DNA from: a virus
DNA: 51,654 nucleotides
Virus record (IMG/VR): IMGVR_UViG_3300036985_007573
Location: 1 to 51,654 of that record
Strand: one strand, 5' to 3'
The translations under genes and the position numbers were made by a program. A model generated the notes under the pieces. The model made no database searches. It was not told the origin of the DNA and was given only the letters and a program-made list of their open reading frames with translations. Below, piece after piece: positions 9,355-48,551 of this stretch; positions within the stretch are counted from its first letter, which is position 1; every line of letters begins with the position of its first letter.

Positions 9355-9861
9355 ATGCCATTTTCTGCAGGCGAGTTGTGCTGTTCTTCGAAGGCGTGCG
9401 TGTTACTTGGCGTGACTTCCGGTTCCACGACGACTTTTGACAAAATTCCGCACGTTACGAATGTGAGTGTGCAGCTCCAGTCAAACAACCCGAAGCTCGT
9501 GACAAGTTCTACACAGGGCAAGGAAACCAGCGCGTGCGGGACTGTGACTCAGACGGGGACTCTTGAACTCGCGTGTCACAAGGGGGTTGGTCCGGGGTTG
9601 TTGAACGTCAATAACGTCTACCAGATTGTATGGTCGCAAGATTGCGACAATATCTGGGACAGCGAAGACTGTGTTGCAACAACTTTTACCAATGACTATT
9701 TGCACGCCTACATTCGCATCACTCAGGTTCCAATCAACTACAACATCAGCGGTAATCAGGCTCAGCTTTTCAGTTACCAGTTTGAAATTGTTTCTTGGGT
9801 TGTTGGTCCGGATGATTACCAGCAGACTCCAGAAGTTGTCACTACTCTTTTTGACTGCTGA
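9355..9861 (+). CDS. Major tail (tube) protein
   Basis: A 168-residue beta-rich protein (MPFSAGELCCSSKACVLLG) with the short repeated-strand look of tube subunits, encoded immediately before the chaperone pair and tape measure. It would polymerise into the tail tube. GGAGAG lies upstream. Eight or more cysteines are unusual for a tube protein. Confidence 0.65.
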   Translation: MPFSAGELCCSSKACVLLGVTSGSTTTFDKIPHVTNVSVQLQSNNPKLVTSSTQGKETSACGTVTQTGTLELACHKGVGPGLLNVNNVYQIVWSQDCDNIWDSEDCVATTFTNDYLHAYIRITQVPINYNISGNQAQLFSYQFEIVSWVVGPDDYQQTPEVVTTLFDC

Positions 9862-9875
9862 GAACTGAGGCGACG

Positions 9876-10412
9876 ATGATCAAAGTTCAGGTTGGCGGAA
9901 CTGAACTTGTGATTGCTCCCAAAAGGCTGCTCGACTACTGCGAGAAGATTGATTTCATTAAATCTCGCAGAGAGCGGCCTTGGGATCTTTTGCAGAAGGT
10001 TCCGAAGAATCTATCGGCACAGGACTTCACGGCATTCGTTGAGATTGCCATGCAGACCTGCTACAAGTTTTCGTCTGCAGTCTCGATTCAGGAGGAACTG
10101 CAGTTTGACACGTCCGAGGAGGGGTTCTACTTTGACCTCTGGCGGGCGATACGGCGAGGCAGTCCGGCGGGTAAGAAGAAGCAGGCAATCAATCGTCTGA
10201 CGAATCCAGATGCCGAGAACAAAGAGCCTTGGCGTCAGGGAATCATGGATGCCAGAACGCTCTGGCAGAACGCGACGGACGACGAGAAGGCTTCGTTGAA
10301 GGCAGCGCTGTTTGCGTCTGACCAGCAGGCAATCCTAAAAAAATCCGATGGCCCGCCCGTGAGCGAGAAGAGCGATCCGGGACCGCAGGGCCAGGAAAAA
10401 ACGTCTCCCTGA
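9876..10412 (+). CDS. Tail assembly chaperone, short form (G)
   Basis: A 178-residue mostly helical protein (LLDYCEKIDFIKSRRERPW) lying between tube and tape measure genes, the place of lambda gpG. It should coat the tape measure during tail assembly. The C-terminal 22 residues, after codon 156, are low in complexity (PPVSEKSDPGPQGQ). They begin right after a slippery A-AAA-AAA heptamer at 10337-10343, where a second product is probably made. Confidence 0.75.
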   Translation: MIKVQVGGTELVIAPKRLLDYCEKIDFIKSRRERPWDLLQKVPKNLSAQDFTAFVEIAMQTCYKFSSAVSIQEELQFDTSEEGFYFDLWRAIRRGSPAGKKKQAINRLTNPDAENKEPWRQGIMDARTLWQNATDDEKASLKAALFASDQQAILKKSDGPPVSEKSDPGPQGQEKTSP

Positions 10413-10576
10413 ACATTGAAGATCCATTTGCCGTTGATGGGCAGGAGATCTCCGGATGCCGGTACAAAATGCTGGCAATATCTGTGTGCCGAACTACGCA
10501 CTTGTCGTTAGAATCGGCGATGGGTTTGACGTTGATTGAGGCTTATACGGCGATCGGTGGAGTGTGTTATGTCTAG
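9876..10576 (+). CDS. Tail assembly chaperone, frameshifted long form (G-T)
   Basis: A -1 shift at the heptamer 10337-10343 (codon phase CTA AAA AAA) would join 156 residues of G to 77 residues read from 10343 to 10573, with TAG at 10574-10576, giving about 233 residues. The -1 frame is open exactly across the gap between G and the tape measure, and its stop overlaps the tape measure start by 8 bases. Five bases after the heptamer, TGGCCC (10349-10354) can pair with GGGCCA (10388-10393) as a stimulator. This matches the gpG/gpGT architecture of long-tailed phages. Join 9876-10343 and 10343-10576. Confidence 0.75.
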
Positions 10577-29673: not shown

Positions 29674-31140
29674 TCAGAAAAAGTCATCCATTTCGGTGGC
29701 AGCGATTGCTGACTCTTGTTGTTCAGGCTTGCCCACAAATCCATTCACGATCGCTTCAATCACGTCGCGTTTCTTGTCGCGGGCAATCCCCACTTCTTCA
29801 TCGATCGTTCCAGTGGTTATCAGGTGATAAAAAATCACGTTGCGATCCTGCCCAGGGCGATACTGGCGAGCCAGCATCTGATCGTAATTCCCCGGTGAAA
29901 GCAGACCTGTATTCATGATGATCCCGATACGACTCTTCGTCAGGTCAATACCCGTCCCTCCGGACAGACACTGAACGCCAAGGATGTCGACGTTGTCGGG
30001 ATACTTTGACTCCTTCGTAAGATCCTTCCTGCTGCCGGAGACTTCACCGTAACTCTTGCCGAGCAGTTTTGCGCACTCCTTCACACACTGCAGGTCAGGA
30101 GTGAAGAACCCATAAACAACCACGGGCTCGTCTGTCTGTTCCAGCAGTTCCAGCAGGATCCGTTTCTTACATCCATCGGTCGATACGATCTCTTTCTCTT
30201 CTGTTTTGACGTATCCCTGAGCAAGCTGAAGCAGCCTCAGATACCGGACTGCGCCGTTGTCGGCGACTGCCATTTTGATAGACTCTTCGCCTGTGCTGTT
30301 TCCGTTGTCGTCAACAATGTCCTGACGAATCTCGGCCAGCATGTTCTTCCTCATTTCCTTGTAAATCCGGAGCCCTTCTCCGGTCAGCGATACGTCTCTG
30401 CGAATGTGCTGGCATTCCGGAAGATCCAAAACGTCTTTGGAGATCTTGTAACAGATCGAGTTATATCTGCGACTAAAGTCCTCTGTGTTCACCCACTTGT
30501 CGACTTTCTGCGGAATGTACTGGTTCATCACCGCATATTGTTTTGTGAAGTGTGTCCAGAATGGGCCAAAGATTTCAGAATCAAGAAACCGGTATTGAGC
30601 AAAGGCATCTCCGGGATCGTTGTCCATTGGAGTACCAGTCAGGCAGATTCTGCGTTTCGCCAGTTTTGCAAGTTTGGATGCAAGTTTGCTGGTGATACTG
30701 CCATGCCCCTTGATTCTCTGGCTCTCATCGCAAATCACCACATTCCACTTCAGTGAAAGCAGCGTTGCGGTGATGTTCTTGGTGATAGCGCTTTCGTAGT
30801 TCACAACGACAAGCAGAGCTCTGTTGTGCATCTTCGCGTGGGCAACAGACGCCAGAATCTGATCGGCCTTCTTCGCTGAGTTCATCGACTTATTGTCGAG
30901 CGCCAAGACATCAAACACTCCGGCCGCATGTTTTCGGCATTCTCCGCGCCAGACACCAATGACGGTGGCAGGACACATAATCAACGCCAATCCGCCGGCA
31001 GACAAGTCCTTCCGTAAGACTTCAATCGCCATCTTCGTTTTGCCGGTTCCCATGTGGGCTTCCAGCATCGTCGCATGATGACTCAGCATGTAATCGATAG
31101 CAGGAGGCTGGTGGCTCCATTTCTGTGAAGACTTGTGCAT
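29674..31140 (-). CDS. SNF2-type DEAD/H helicase
   Basis: A 488-residue superfamily 2 ATPase. Motif I is MGTGKT, motif II CDESQRIK, motif III LTGTPMDN, motif V LSGGTGIDL and motif VI ARQYRPGQDRN. This is the compact phage form that is often near recombination genes and is thought to remodel forks or displace proteins from DNA. AAGGG lies 8 bases before ATG 31140. The start lies inside the preceding gene, with a 119-base overlap. Confidence 0.88.
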   Translation of the reverse strand: MHKSSQKWSHQPPAIDYMLSHHATMLEAHMGTGKTKMAIEVLRKDLSAGGLALIMCPATVIGVWRGECRKHAAGVFDVLALDNKSMNSAKKADQILASVAHAKMHNRALLVVVNYESAITKNITATLLSLKWNVVICDESQRIKGHGSITSKLASKLAKLAKRRICLTGTPMDNDPGDAFAQYRFLDSEIFGPFWTHFTKQYAVMNQYIPQKVDKWVNTEDFSRRYNSICYKISKDVLDLPECQHIRRDVSLTGEGLRIYKEMRKNMLAEIRQDIVDDNGNSTGEESIKMAVADNGAVRYLRLLQLAQGYVKTEEKEIVSTDGCKKRILLELLEQTDEPVVVYGFFTPDLQCVKECAKLLGKSYGEVSGSRKDLTKESKYPDNVDILGVQCLSGGTGIDLTKSRIGIIMNTGLLSPGNYDQMLARQYRPGQDRNVIFYHLITTGTIDEEVGIARDKKRDVIEAIVNGFVGKPEQQESAIAATEMDDFF

Positions 31141-32043: not shown

Positions 32044-33777
32044 ATGGAAACGATTCCACTTGAAGGTGCTTTGCTTCTCGCAAAGCACGGATTGCACGTT
32101 GTAAAGCTGCACTACCCGTTGTTTACTGAGGGGCAGGTGCTTTGTACCTGCGGAAACCCTTCGTGCAGGAGCCAGGGCAAACATCCTGTCGGCGCTCAAT
32201 GGGGCAAGTCTGCAACGTGTGACACCGAGGTGATTCTGGATCTGTGGAATGATCGTCCATGGAATGTTGGAGTTTTGCTGGGGATTGCGCACGGCGTTCC
32301 AGAGAATCAGGCAATCATCGACATCGAGGATGATACACTCGAAGGGCGAAAACTTGCTGAGACAGTGCTGGCGGATTATCCGACAGTCACATGGAGCAGC
32401 GGCAAGTCGCTGCACAGAATTTATCGCTGGCATCCCGGTTTACCGCAGGTTGCCGATGTGACGATCAACGGACTTGAGATCCGGATTGGTGGCAAGGGAA
32501 AAGAGACGCAGTCTGTTGCTCCTCCCTCGAAGCATTTTTCGGGGCGGAACTATCAGTTTTCAGAAGGTAAGGGGCTCGATCAGATTCCGATTGCTGAACT
32601 GCCGCAGCATGTCGTCGACTGGATTTGTGAAGAGTATATGCGACAGCAGCAGTCACCGGGTGGAGCCCCGAGTTCTGCTGATCACCGGCGGTTCCGGGTT
32701 CCGGGAACGAAGGTTCAGTCCCCCGGCCGAAATAACGCTCTGATCAGGCACGCGAACTCATGCTGGCGGACAGCCTGTAAGCTGCACGGAATCAATGGTC
32801 TTGAGGAATCTGAAGTCCGGGATCAGGTTTGGTTGTGGGTGTGGGGCGCGAATTTGGCTACCTGTGACCCGCCAATGGATGAGGGGGAAGTCTGGGATAT
32901 TTTCCAGAAGGCCGAAAGGTTCATGCTTCCGGAACTTCGGAAAGAGATGGCAGAGAAACGGAAGCAGGCGGAAGTCGCTGCTGTTGAATCTCCAGAAACG
33001 GATGATGGCCGCGAGCTGGGTCTGTATTTGCAGAAGAGTGGCATACGGATTGTTCTGGATCCTCGGGCTCCGGAGGGCGAAGAAACCCCGGACATCGTGA
33101 ACGAGTGGATCTGTGAGTGGAAGCTGCGATACATGCAGCACACTGAAAAGCAGACATCCATGCTGCAGATCAAGAACTGGGAAATTGAGATGCTGGAAAC
33201 CGATCTCGATAAACCCGGTGTGGTGGCGAGGAAGATTTATCAGCACACTGGCGGCCAGATGAAGCTGGATCGCAGCTTTGCGTTCTGGTCATGGAAGGAC
33301 ATCTGGCTTGGCAGAGTGACAAAGAAACAGGGAATCACCCGGGGACTCCGAGAATTTCTCCTGAACACAGCCGAAATTCAGGACAGCGGAGAGCAGGGAC
33401 TGAAGGGCATGGTCGAAGACTTGATTGGCGGATTGGCCGGTCCTGTCGGCACGATTGCTGCGGCGCTGGTGAAATACAGGGACTTCGGGGCCCCTGTGGC
33501 TGAGATGAAAGATCGCCTGAAGCTGACACCGAGTGGCGAGATCAGCACGTCATGGGTGGAAGGCGATCCACGATCCGGCGTCTACGCGATGGATGGTGGG
33601 TTGGTTGTCGGTGTGAAGATTGACGAGATCGCCAAACGATACGGAGCAACCTACGGTCGAGGCACAGTCAGTGCGGCGGATATTGGGAAAGTTCTGTCTG
33701 AGCTTGGATTTGAACGAAAATGGCTGAGAACCGGCCCACTTGAGGGACGGTCATGGATCCGGAAATTCGAGCAGTAG
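32044..33777 (+). CDS. Bifunctional primase-polymerase
   Basis: A 577-residue replication protein. The N-terminal Prim-Pol domain shows the zinc-like C34-x-C36-x4-C41 with QGKHP, the metal-binding pair D93/E95 in IIDIED, H124 in LHRIYRW and APPSKHFSGRNY, which are typical of the archaeo-eukaryotic primase group in phages. The C-terminal 350 residues have no clear Walker A motif and may be a helicase-loading or primase C-terminal domain. AAAGGA lies 6 bases upstream. It would prime and extend DNA at the phage fork. Confidence 0.8.
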   Translation: METIPLEGALLLAKHGLHVVKLHYPLFTEGQVLCTCGNPSCRSQGKHPVGAQWGKSATCDTEVILDLWNDRPWNVGVLLGIAHGVPENQAIIDIEDDTLEGRKLAETVLADYPTVTWSSGKSLHRIYRWHPGLPQVADVTINGLEIRIGGKGKETQSVAPPSKHFSGRNYQFSEGKGLDQIPIAELPQHVVDWICEEYMRQQQSPGGAPSSADHRRFRVPGTKVQSPGRNNALIRHANSCWRTACKLHGINGLEESEVRDQVWLWVWGANLATCDPPMDEGEVWDIFQKAERFMLPELRKEMAEKRKQAEVAAVESPETDDGRELGLYLQKSGIRIVLDPRAPEGEETPDIVNEWICEWKLRYMQHTEKQTSMLQIKNWEIEMLETDLDKPGVVARKIYQHTGGQMKLDRSFAFWSWKDIWLGRVTKKQGITRGLREFLLNTAEIQDSGEQGLKGMVEDLIGGLAGPVGTIAAALVKYRDFGAPVAEMKDRLKLTPSGEISTSWVEGDPRSGVYAMDGGLVVGVKIDEIAKRYGATYGRGTVSAADIGKVLSELGFERKWLRTGPLEGRSWIRKFEQ

Positions 33778-46230: not shown

Positions 46231-46236
46231 ACTTCG

Positions 46237-46304
46237 TGCTGCTGCTGCTACTGCTGCTACTGCTGCTGCCGGGGAGCAATCGCTCCCCGGCTTTCTTCGT
46301 TTTT
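46237..46304 (+). repeat. CTG tract followed by GC hairpin and T-rich run
   Basis: CTG/CTA triplets from 46239 to 46267, then a perfect 9-bp hairpin CCGGGGAGC-AATC-GCTCCCCGG (46269-46290) and CTTTCTTCGTTTTT. It probably ends the operon at 46230 while leaving the ribosome site AAGGA for the helicase gene at 46317. The same mix of CTG tract and GC hairpin recurs in the right arm. Confidence 0.85.
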
Positions 46305-46316
46305 AAGGACATTGAA

Positions 46317-48551
46317 ATGGACGATCGATATCATGTGGTGGTCGGAGTCGCCGGAGCCGGCAAAACGGCGATGGCCATGGACCTGCTGGAACAACATCTC
46401 AAGGAAGGCCTCAAGTTCTGGGAAGTCGGATTCCTTAGCTTCTCCCGTGCTGCCTGCTCCGAAGCCGTCAGCCGGGCCGCGAAGATTACCGGGGAAGCGG
46501 AAGATCGCTTGACAGCGAGCGGATATTATAAGACAATCCACGCAGCCGCTGTACGCGCTCTCGGAATCGATGCTAAAACGATTCTGGATCCCGACAGCAA
46601 AGATGGGCAAGAGTGGTACACCGAACACCTCGGAGTCCCGAGAGGTGGAGAAAAAGGAACACTCGCCTGGAGAGTCGGCAGAATCCTCGAAAAGTGGGAT
46701 ATCGCCCGACAACAGGTCTGGGAAATCGTCAGTCCGGTGAATCCGACAGACAGTCAGCTTGCAACGCCTGCAACGCCCATTAACGCCCGCGCAACGCCCG
46801 ATTTTGATCGGGCGTGCGCGCGTTCCAGCAATGAAAACACTAGCGAAAGTGATGCTGCGCACGCCGAATCACGCCCGTTCCTATTACATATAGGAGATAT
46901 GGAATCAAATAACACAACGACCGGTACTCGCGAAAATGGGCGTTGCAGCGTTGCAGAATTATATAACCCTATATGGAATAAGGATTTACGAGCGCACACA
47001 CCCCCCCCTGACTGGCGTTGCGCAGGCGTTGCAGGCGCTGCGCAGGACGGAGTTACGGAAGGAAAGGAGGGTAAACCAGTATTGAGCAAATGGATTGACG
47101 GCGTTGATGATCCGGACTTCGCCCGGGACATCGTCGGACGGTTCGAACGGGCCAAACTCCTTTGGGGCCGGAACGACTTTACCGACATCCTGCTGAAGTA
47201 TGCAGGGATCAAATACCACGAAGGACTCCTGCTGCCCTCGCTGCCTGTCGGTTCCGAACCGGACGAAGTGAAGGTGTGGTTCGTCGACGAAGCTCAGGAC
47301 TGTTCTCAGCTCCTCTGGCTCGTCGTGGACAGGCTCGCCAACCAATCGGAGAAAATTTATCTGCTTGGAGACCCATACCAGAGCGTATACCGCTTTCTGG
47401 GGGCTGATCCCGATGAATTGCTCGGACGGCAGAACGAATCGCGCCAGCGGGGCTCCTACACGCTCCTGAATAGGACGTGGAGAAACCCGGCGCAGGTGAT
47501 TGAGTGGGGAGAGTCGGTATTGTCAGAGCAAGAGAGTTATAGGTCCAGAAATCCATTTTCAGAACATGATGCCGGATCCGTAGGTCTTGTCGAGTGGAAC
47601 GACTTCGTTTACCGAATCCACGATCTCGCAAACATCGATACTATGATTCTCGGACGCACATGGTTCTCGCTGGAGAAGGTGCAGCGAGCACTCAACGAAC
47701 GAGGAATACCCTGGGCCTCAGTCGCAGAGAAACATGCCTCGAAATGGCAGGCACCGGCCAAACTGGCCTTCGTCCTCGTCATGCGGGAGCTGATCGCCGG
47801 GATCCCAATCTCCGAACAGGACTGGCGCAGAGTCACCGAAACCCTGCCACAGAAGTTCCAGGGTGAAGAACTGTTCCGCCGAGGCGAAAAGGCCAAATGG
47901 AAGAAATTCGCCTGCAGCCACGATCCACAGAAAACCCTGGCAGAAGTTGAACAGTGGGGAGCCACCCCGTATTTTCAGCAGTTCGCCACCGAAGGACGGT
48001 GGAAAGAAGATATGTTCCTCCTCATTGACCATGCCATCGAGAAGTACGGAATCGATGCCGTCCGAAAGCCACGGATCCGTTTGGGCACGGCACACGCCGT
48101 CAAAGGCATGGAAGCCAAAGTCGTCTATTGCCTCGCTGCTTCCACTGAGGCTTCCCAAAATGCCGATCCTAGGGAAGAATGCTGCCTGAAGTACGTGACA
48201 ATCACCAGAGCCTCTGCAGACTATAGACTTGTGGTCGACGATGCCGACGTGGTTCGGGGCAAACCACTCTTCTGGGCCGCCCCGAAAGATTTCCGGGGCT
48301 ACGACCGAAAACAGGAGTTCATCGATGCGAGAATCAAGGATTCAAAAGAAGATCACCGATTGGCTGACCTCGCAGAATATCTGGTGGATGAAAGCCCACC
48401 AAACGAACTTCAGCCGCTCCGGGATCCCGGACCTGATAGTCTGCCTCGACGGCAGGTTCCTGTCGCTGGAAGTCAAGACGGAAACCGGCAATCCGACCCC
48501 CCTGCAGATGCGGGAGAGGGAGAAGATCTTGAAGAGTGGTGGAACATGTGA
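46317..48551 (+). CDS. UvrD/Rep-family helicase
   Basis: A 744-residue superfamily 1 helicase: motif I GVAGAGKT (10-17), Ia LSFSRAA, Ic-like KTIHAAAVRALG, II FVDEAQD (about 325), III GDPYQSVYRF (about 352), IV TWRNP (about 387), V/VI GTAHAVKGMEAKVV (about 590) and VTITRAS (about 627). It would unwind DNA in replication or recombination. Residues 147-243 are a low-complexity insert of odd composition whose DNA looks like an origin or mobile insert. The last 75 residues share DNA with the VRR-NUC gene. ATG 46317 has AAGGA 8 bases upstream; an in-frame poly-Leu extension is not favoured. Confidence 0.85.
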   Translation: MDDRYHVVVGVAGAGKTAMAMDLLEQHLKEGLKFWEVGFLSFSRAACSEAVSRAAKITGEAEDRLTASGYYKTIHAAAVRALGIDAKTILDPDSKDGQEWYTEHLGVPRGGEKGTLAWRVGRILEKWDIARQQVWEIVSPVNPTDSQLATPATPINARATPDFDRACARSSNENTSESDAAHAESRPFLLHIGDMESNNTTTGTRENGRCSVAELYNPIWNKDLRAHTPPPDWRCAGVAGAAQDGVTEGKEGKPVLSKWIDGVDDPDFARDIVGRFERAKLLWGRNDFTDILLKYAGIKYHEGLLLPSLPVGSEPDEVKVWFVDEAQDCSQLLWLVVDRLANQSEKIYLLGDPYQSVYRFLGADPDELLGRQNESRQRGSYTLLNRTWRNPAQVIEWGESVLSEQESYRSRNPFSEHDAGSVGLVEWNDFVYRIHDLANIDTMILGRTWFSLEKVQRALNERGIPWASVAEKHASKWQAPAKLAFVLVMRELIAGIPISEQDWRRVTETLPQKFQGEELFRRGEKAKWKKFACSHDPQKTLAEVEQWGATPYFQQFATEGRWKEDMFLLIDHAIEKYGIDAVRKPRIRLGTAHAVKGMEAKVVYCLAASTEASQNADPREECCLKYVTITRASADYRLVVDDADVVRGKPLFWAAPKDFRGYDRKQEFIDARIKDSKEDHRLADLAEYLVDESPPNELQPLRDPGPDSLPRRQVPVAGSQDGNRQSDPPADAGEGEDLEEWWNM
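46758..47047. other. Origin-like or mobile insert inside the helicase gene
   Basis: The left flank has GCAACGCC at 46761, 46770 and 46791 with a degenerate copy at 46780. The right flank has the opposite orientation, GGCGTTGC at 46939, 47014 and 47025, plus GCGTTGC at 46948 and a variant at 47034. Between them is an A/T-rich core (about 46880-46985) with a hairpin CCTAT-TACAT-ATAGG. A perfect palindrome ACGCCCGAT-TTTG-ATCGGGCGT lies at 46794-46815. Iterons, an AT-rich core and a palindrome inside a replication gene recall the lambda origin in gene O. A TIR-bearing small insert is the alternative. Confidence 0.5.

Follow-up and report, generated by a model that had tools for sequence, protein, structure and literature searches.

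A predicted lambda-type programmed −1 frameshift between tail chaperone genes G and T in an uncultured virus and its relatives

We analysed the IMG/VR virus record IMGVR_UViG_3300036985_007573 (positions 1 to 51,654; 51,654 nucleotides, hereafter called the window) and its relatives with respect to the genes that precede the tape-measure gene. Directly upstream of this gene lie two overlapping frames, the second of which is in the −1 frame (Table 1). The first, gene G, is located between the presumed major tail protein gene and the tape-measure gene and has homologues at 42–100% identity in 20 viral contigs. Around the heptamer, the G frame reads ATC CTA AAA AAA TCC, the second lysine being residue 156. 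The −1 frame translates as IRWPARE...GGVCYV, and its TAG stop codon at 10574–10576 falls 8 nt inside the tape-measure start (ATG at 10569). A first-pass annotation had proposed a programmed −1 frameshift here, based on an in-phase A-AAA-AAA heptamer, a 77-codon open −1 frame that stops 8 bases inside the tape-measure start and a possible TGGCCC/GGGCCA stem five bases downstream of the heptamer. The heptamer is present to the base, the −1 frame ends as described, and both stem arms are found behind the spacer TCCGA. With the −1 frame included, the gene model of the locus is corrected to a predicted 233-aa G–T fusion. Elsewhere in the window, the terminase large subunit at 553–2010 matches phrog_979, and there are genes for a SNF2-type helicase (29674–31140, minus strand), a Prim-Pol primase (32044–33777, plus strand) and a UvrD-type helicase (46236–48551, plus strand).

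Table 1 Features of the G–T locus in the window
Feature	Coordinates	Strand	Evidence
Presumed major tail (tube) protein gene, 168 aa, directly upstream of G	9355..9861	+	position only
Gene G, predicted tail assembly chaperone, 178-aa zero-frame product	9876..10412	+	ORF; homologues; position
Slippery heptamer A_AAA_AAA (X_XXY_YYZ), zero phase of G	10337..10343	+	aligned heptamer AAAAAAA, AAAAAAC or GGGAAAC in 20/20 complete relatives
T extension, −1 frame, 77 codons plus TAG; predicted G–T fusion of 233 aa	10343..10576	+	protein conservation, dN/dS
Spacer TCCGA (5 nt), from heptamer to stem	10344..10348	+	equal length in every relative examined
Downstream stem-loop, probable frameshift stimulator	10349..10393	+	arms TGGCCC 10349–10354 / GGGCCA 10388–10393
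Putative tape-measure protein gene, 874 aa	10569..13193	+	position, size, length variation

Neither the presumed tube protein nor the tape-measure product has a match in Pfam or PHROG, and the assignment of the latter therefore rests on its position, its size and its variation in length, with relatives spanning 837–1194 aa. In IMGVR_UViG_3300020160_002474 (L002/L006), the head and tail genes and the initial ~200 tape-measure codons match the window at ~95.5% identity, and the G and T proteins are identical. The tape-measure protein of this contig comprises 1174 aa compared to 874 aa in the window, and identity drops to about 40% for most of the remainder, so that two near-identical phages should differ by roughly one third in tail length. 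A second clade (L012, L014, L016, L018, L021–L023 and L025; tape-measure genes from 6209) combines very similar G and T with tape-measure proteins of 837 to 975 aa that are 43–55% identical in the pairs compared. Judged by these alignments, the tape measure in this clade changes fast under a constant chaperone.

Taken alone, the window shows features that are only modestly beyond chance (about 2–6% each). When the codons of G are shuffled, 3.1% of the resulting genes gain an in-phase AAAAAAA and 4.4% a strong heptamer within the last 80 nt, and 77 codons stay open in 2–3% of sequences made by shuffling or a Markov model. The stem by itself has a P of about 0.06 in the window, and the folding z-score of the downstream structure (−0.07) indicates that it is no more stable than its shuffles. 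It is the relatives, and not the window by itself, that place the finding far beyond chance.

Relatives were collected by searches anchored in either frame. G alone as query yielded four contigs at 42–100% identity; aligned −1 translations as query yielded 20 loci, some of which the first G search had missed, and in each of the 20 the T-like frame is shifted by −1 relative to a G that precedes it. As a T-independent check, we scanned IMG/VR with a broadened G alignment, which had been built from loci found through T and from which search patterns were derived for G only, and obtained 22 loci. Two of these contigs end inside G; the other 20 of 20 contain both the in-phase heptamer and the T frame, with an open −1 frame of 71–77 codons. 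Apart from contigs ending inside G, the G-based and T-based searches cover the same 20 contigs, which together with the window form 11 clusters at 95% nucleotide identity. The conservation of heptamer and −1 frame in related phages, which the first-pass annotation had left to be checked, thus holds in all 20 complete loci of the G-anchored search, and none of them keeps both genes while lacking the heptamer or carrying stops in the −1 frame. No relatives were found in the isolate-phage collection or in one-per-species prokaryote genomes.

The protein encoded by the −1 frame is conserved as well. In other lineages, T is 38–75% identical to T of the window, and W-P, R-Y, M and E-A-Y are invariant among relatives. 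Outside the overlap with G, dN/dS of T amounts to 0.28, 0.16 and 0.13 for the three pairs in the window's clade and does not exceed 0.21 within the clade that has GGGAAAC. Differences pile up at third positions of the −1 frame (11/5/23 between L003 and L004; 2/0/16 between L012 and L024). By these measures, T is under purifying selection in the −1 frame. The relatives' heptamers, the conserved −1 protein and the low dN/dS together support the reading as a programmed −1 G/GT frameshift that had been proposed from the window; the alignments document the anatomy of the locus and selection on both the heptamer and the −1 frame.

The window's clade has AAAAAAA at the slippery site; in the alignment, three other lineages have AAAAAAC at this position and five clusters have GGGAAAC. 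Every variant fits X_XXY_YYZ, in phase and close to the 3′ end of G. The first base of the heptamer is the third, mostly silent, base of a leucine codon and shifts in step with the heptamer class: the codon is CTA or TTA in 6/6 clusters of the A class and CTG in 5/5 clusters of the G class, while CTA and TTA together account for 11 of the 128 other leucine codons in G. The lineages are not independent, and this pattern carries no formal probability; it is, however, required by slippage and not by protein coding alone.

Downstream of the heptamer, the 5′ arm TGGCCCG is found at a distance of 5 nt in 11/11 distinct loci, and a partner arm of 6–7 bp is present in each of the 11 distinct loci tested, in L015 with wobble pairs only. 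Through insertions and deletions, loop length varies between 16 and 33 nt among these loci. Stimulated −1 frameshift signals consist of a slippery site, a spacer of 5–9 nt and a stem-loop. Folding z-scores range from −2.2 to −4.0 in distant relatives, where the structure is more stable than its shuffles; they are −1.4 for L003 and close to 0 for the window and L004. Since the 5′ arm does not vary, it is uninformative for covariation. A role of the stem as an RNA element that stimulates frameshifting is probable but short of proof: both reading frames are coding here, and selection on the amino acids instead of the RNA could explain why the arms are conserved.

Three other explanations for the two frames have to be weighed. 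RNA polymerases are known to slip on A runs, and the window contains a run of seven A's on which the polymerase could add or drop an A, so that an altered mRNA encodes the fusion. This would have to apply equally to AAAAAAC in three other lineages and to GGGAAAC in five clusters, none of which offers a homopolymer of sufficient length, and both of which are canonical ribosomal slippery sites. In particular, GGGAAAC without a long homopolymer disfavours transcriptional slippage, which we regard as very unlikely. Homopolymer runs are also prone to indel errors, and an error in sequencing or assembly at such a run could have split one continuous gene into G and T. The same frame relation recurs in 20 contigs that were assembled separately, among them the GGGAAAC contigs with no long homopolymer. 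Unless every assembly shares the error, this refutes such an artefact, and we consider its probability to be negligible.

T could also be a separate gene that has a start codon of its own or is translated by ribosomes re-initiating behind G, with the heptamer being coincidental, and an internal ATG does exist at 10469 in the −1 frame. The earliest start codon of the T frame in the window, however, corresponds to T residue 43, has no clear Shine-Dalgarno sequence and comes just after the invariant R40-Y41. Conserved T sequence begins further upstream, in the overlap with G. Separate initiation is disfavoured because the first available start codon comes after conserved sequence; moreover, the heptamer is retained in every complete relative. 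We assign this explanation a slightly lower probability than transcriptional slippage and a clearly higher one than an assembly error. Compared to all three, a programmed −1 ribosomal frameshift of the lambda gpG/gpGT type is strongly favoured by the sequence comparisons, and we consider it very likely to be correct.

A low-level −1 frameshift in phage lambda yields about one gpGT per 30 gpG, with gpG binding to the tape-measure protein and T to the tail tube subunit (Levin et al. 1993; Xu et al. 2004, 2013, 2014, reviewed in PMC5009743). The window shares with lambda the gene order (V-G-T-H in lambda; here the presumed tube gene, G, T and the putative tape-measure gene), an X_XXY_YYZ heptamer that lies in phase shortly before G ends, the −1 direction of the predicted shift and an overlap of 8 nt between T stop and tape-measure start. 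It differs in the heptamer itself (A7 versus GGGAAAG in lambda), in the length of the −1 part (77 versus 144 codons), in the distance from the first base of the heptamer to the end of the G stop codon (75 versus 24 nt) and in the presence of a conserved downstream stem. Homology of G and T to lambda gpG and T is not detectable by hhalign (Prob 0.3 and 0.1), which fits the low mutual sequence similarity for which tail chaperones are known (PMC5009743).

Neither G nor T has a confident match to a tail-chaperone profile in Pfam or PHROG. The first-pass annotation had remarked that these chaperones have no obvious match to described ones, which is borne out for Pfam, PHROG and the isolate-phage collection. 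The AlphaFold model of G is of moderate quality (pLDDT 67) and gives no significant Foldseek match in the PDB and viral libraries; a match to GT of phage N15 is insignificant (E 0.95, prob 0.21). The model of T is poor except for three helices at residues 42–71. Four G relatives match phrog_21941 weakly (function not assigned; E down to 0.0012), and this family may represent unrecognised tail chaperones. A comparable arrangement is found in Methanoculleus virus L4768 (NC_074642), the best-scoring terminase relative among the isolates listed. Here, gp22 contains an in-phase A_AAA_AAC at its end, just before the tape-measure gene, that gives access to a −1 frame running through gp23 up to that gene (L055:13354–13620). 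gp22 and gp23 are annotated as two hypothetical proteins with no frameshift noted, and tblastn searches with G gave no match in this virus. They probably constitute an unannotated G/GT frameshift.

That ribosomes slip here, how efficiently they do so and that the products act as chaperones is inferred from the anatomy of the locus. Most ribosomes would translate G and terminate at 10412, whereas a minority would slip back by one base on A_AAA_AAA, with two tRNAs (Lys-Lys) re-pairing together, probably aided by the stem-loop that starts 5 nt downstream. Slipped ribosomes would follow the −1 frame to 10576 and produce the 233-aa G–T fusion. G and G–T would then coat the tape-measure protein, the tail-tube subunit would be brought in by the T domain, and tail assembly would be controlled through the ratio of G to G–T.

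Frameshifting in G/GT is a textbook phenomenon of a widely known kind and a standard annotation item (PMC8785237; PMC10274946), and our claim to novelty is modest. With somewhat better than even confidence, we propose that this is a chaperone family without detectable kinship to lambda gpG, in which the slippery site was switched between the A class (AAAAAAA/AAAAAAC) and GGGAAAC by a coordinated three-base change that includes the silent leucine position, while one stem-loop stimulator was kept. If true, the family would provide a natural series for how the level of frameshifting stays constant across changes of the slippery site. The exchange of heptamer classes around one stem makes a usable comparative data set. 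The locus extends the conserved G/GT frameshift to uncultured long-tailed phages whose chaperones are missed by current profiles, and the T sequences may serve as a new profile for detecting such chaperones.
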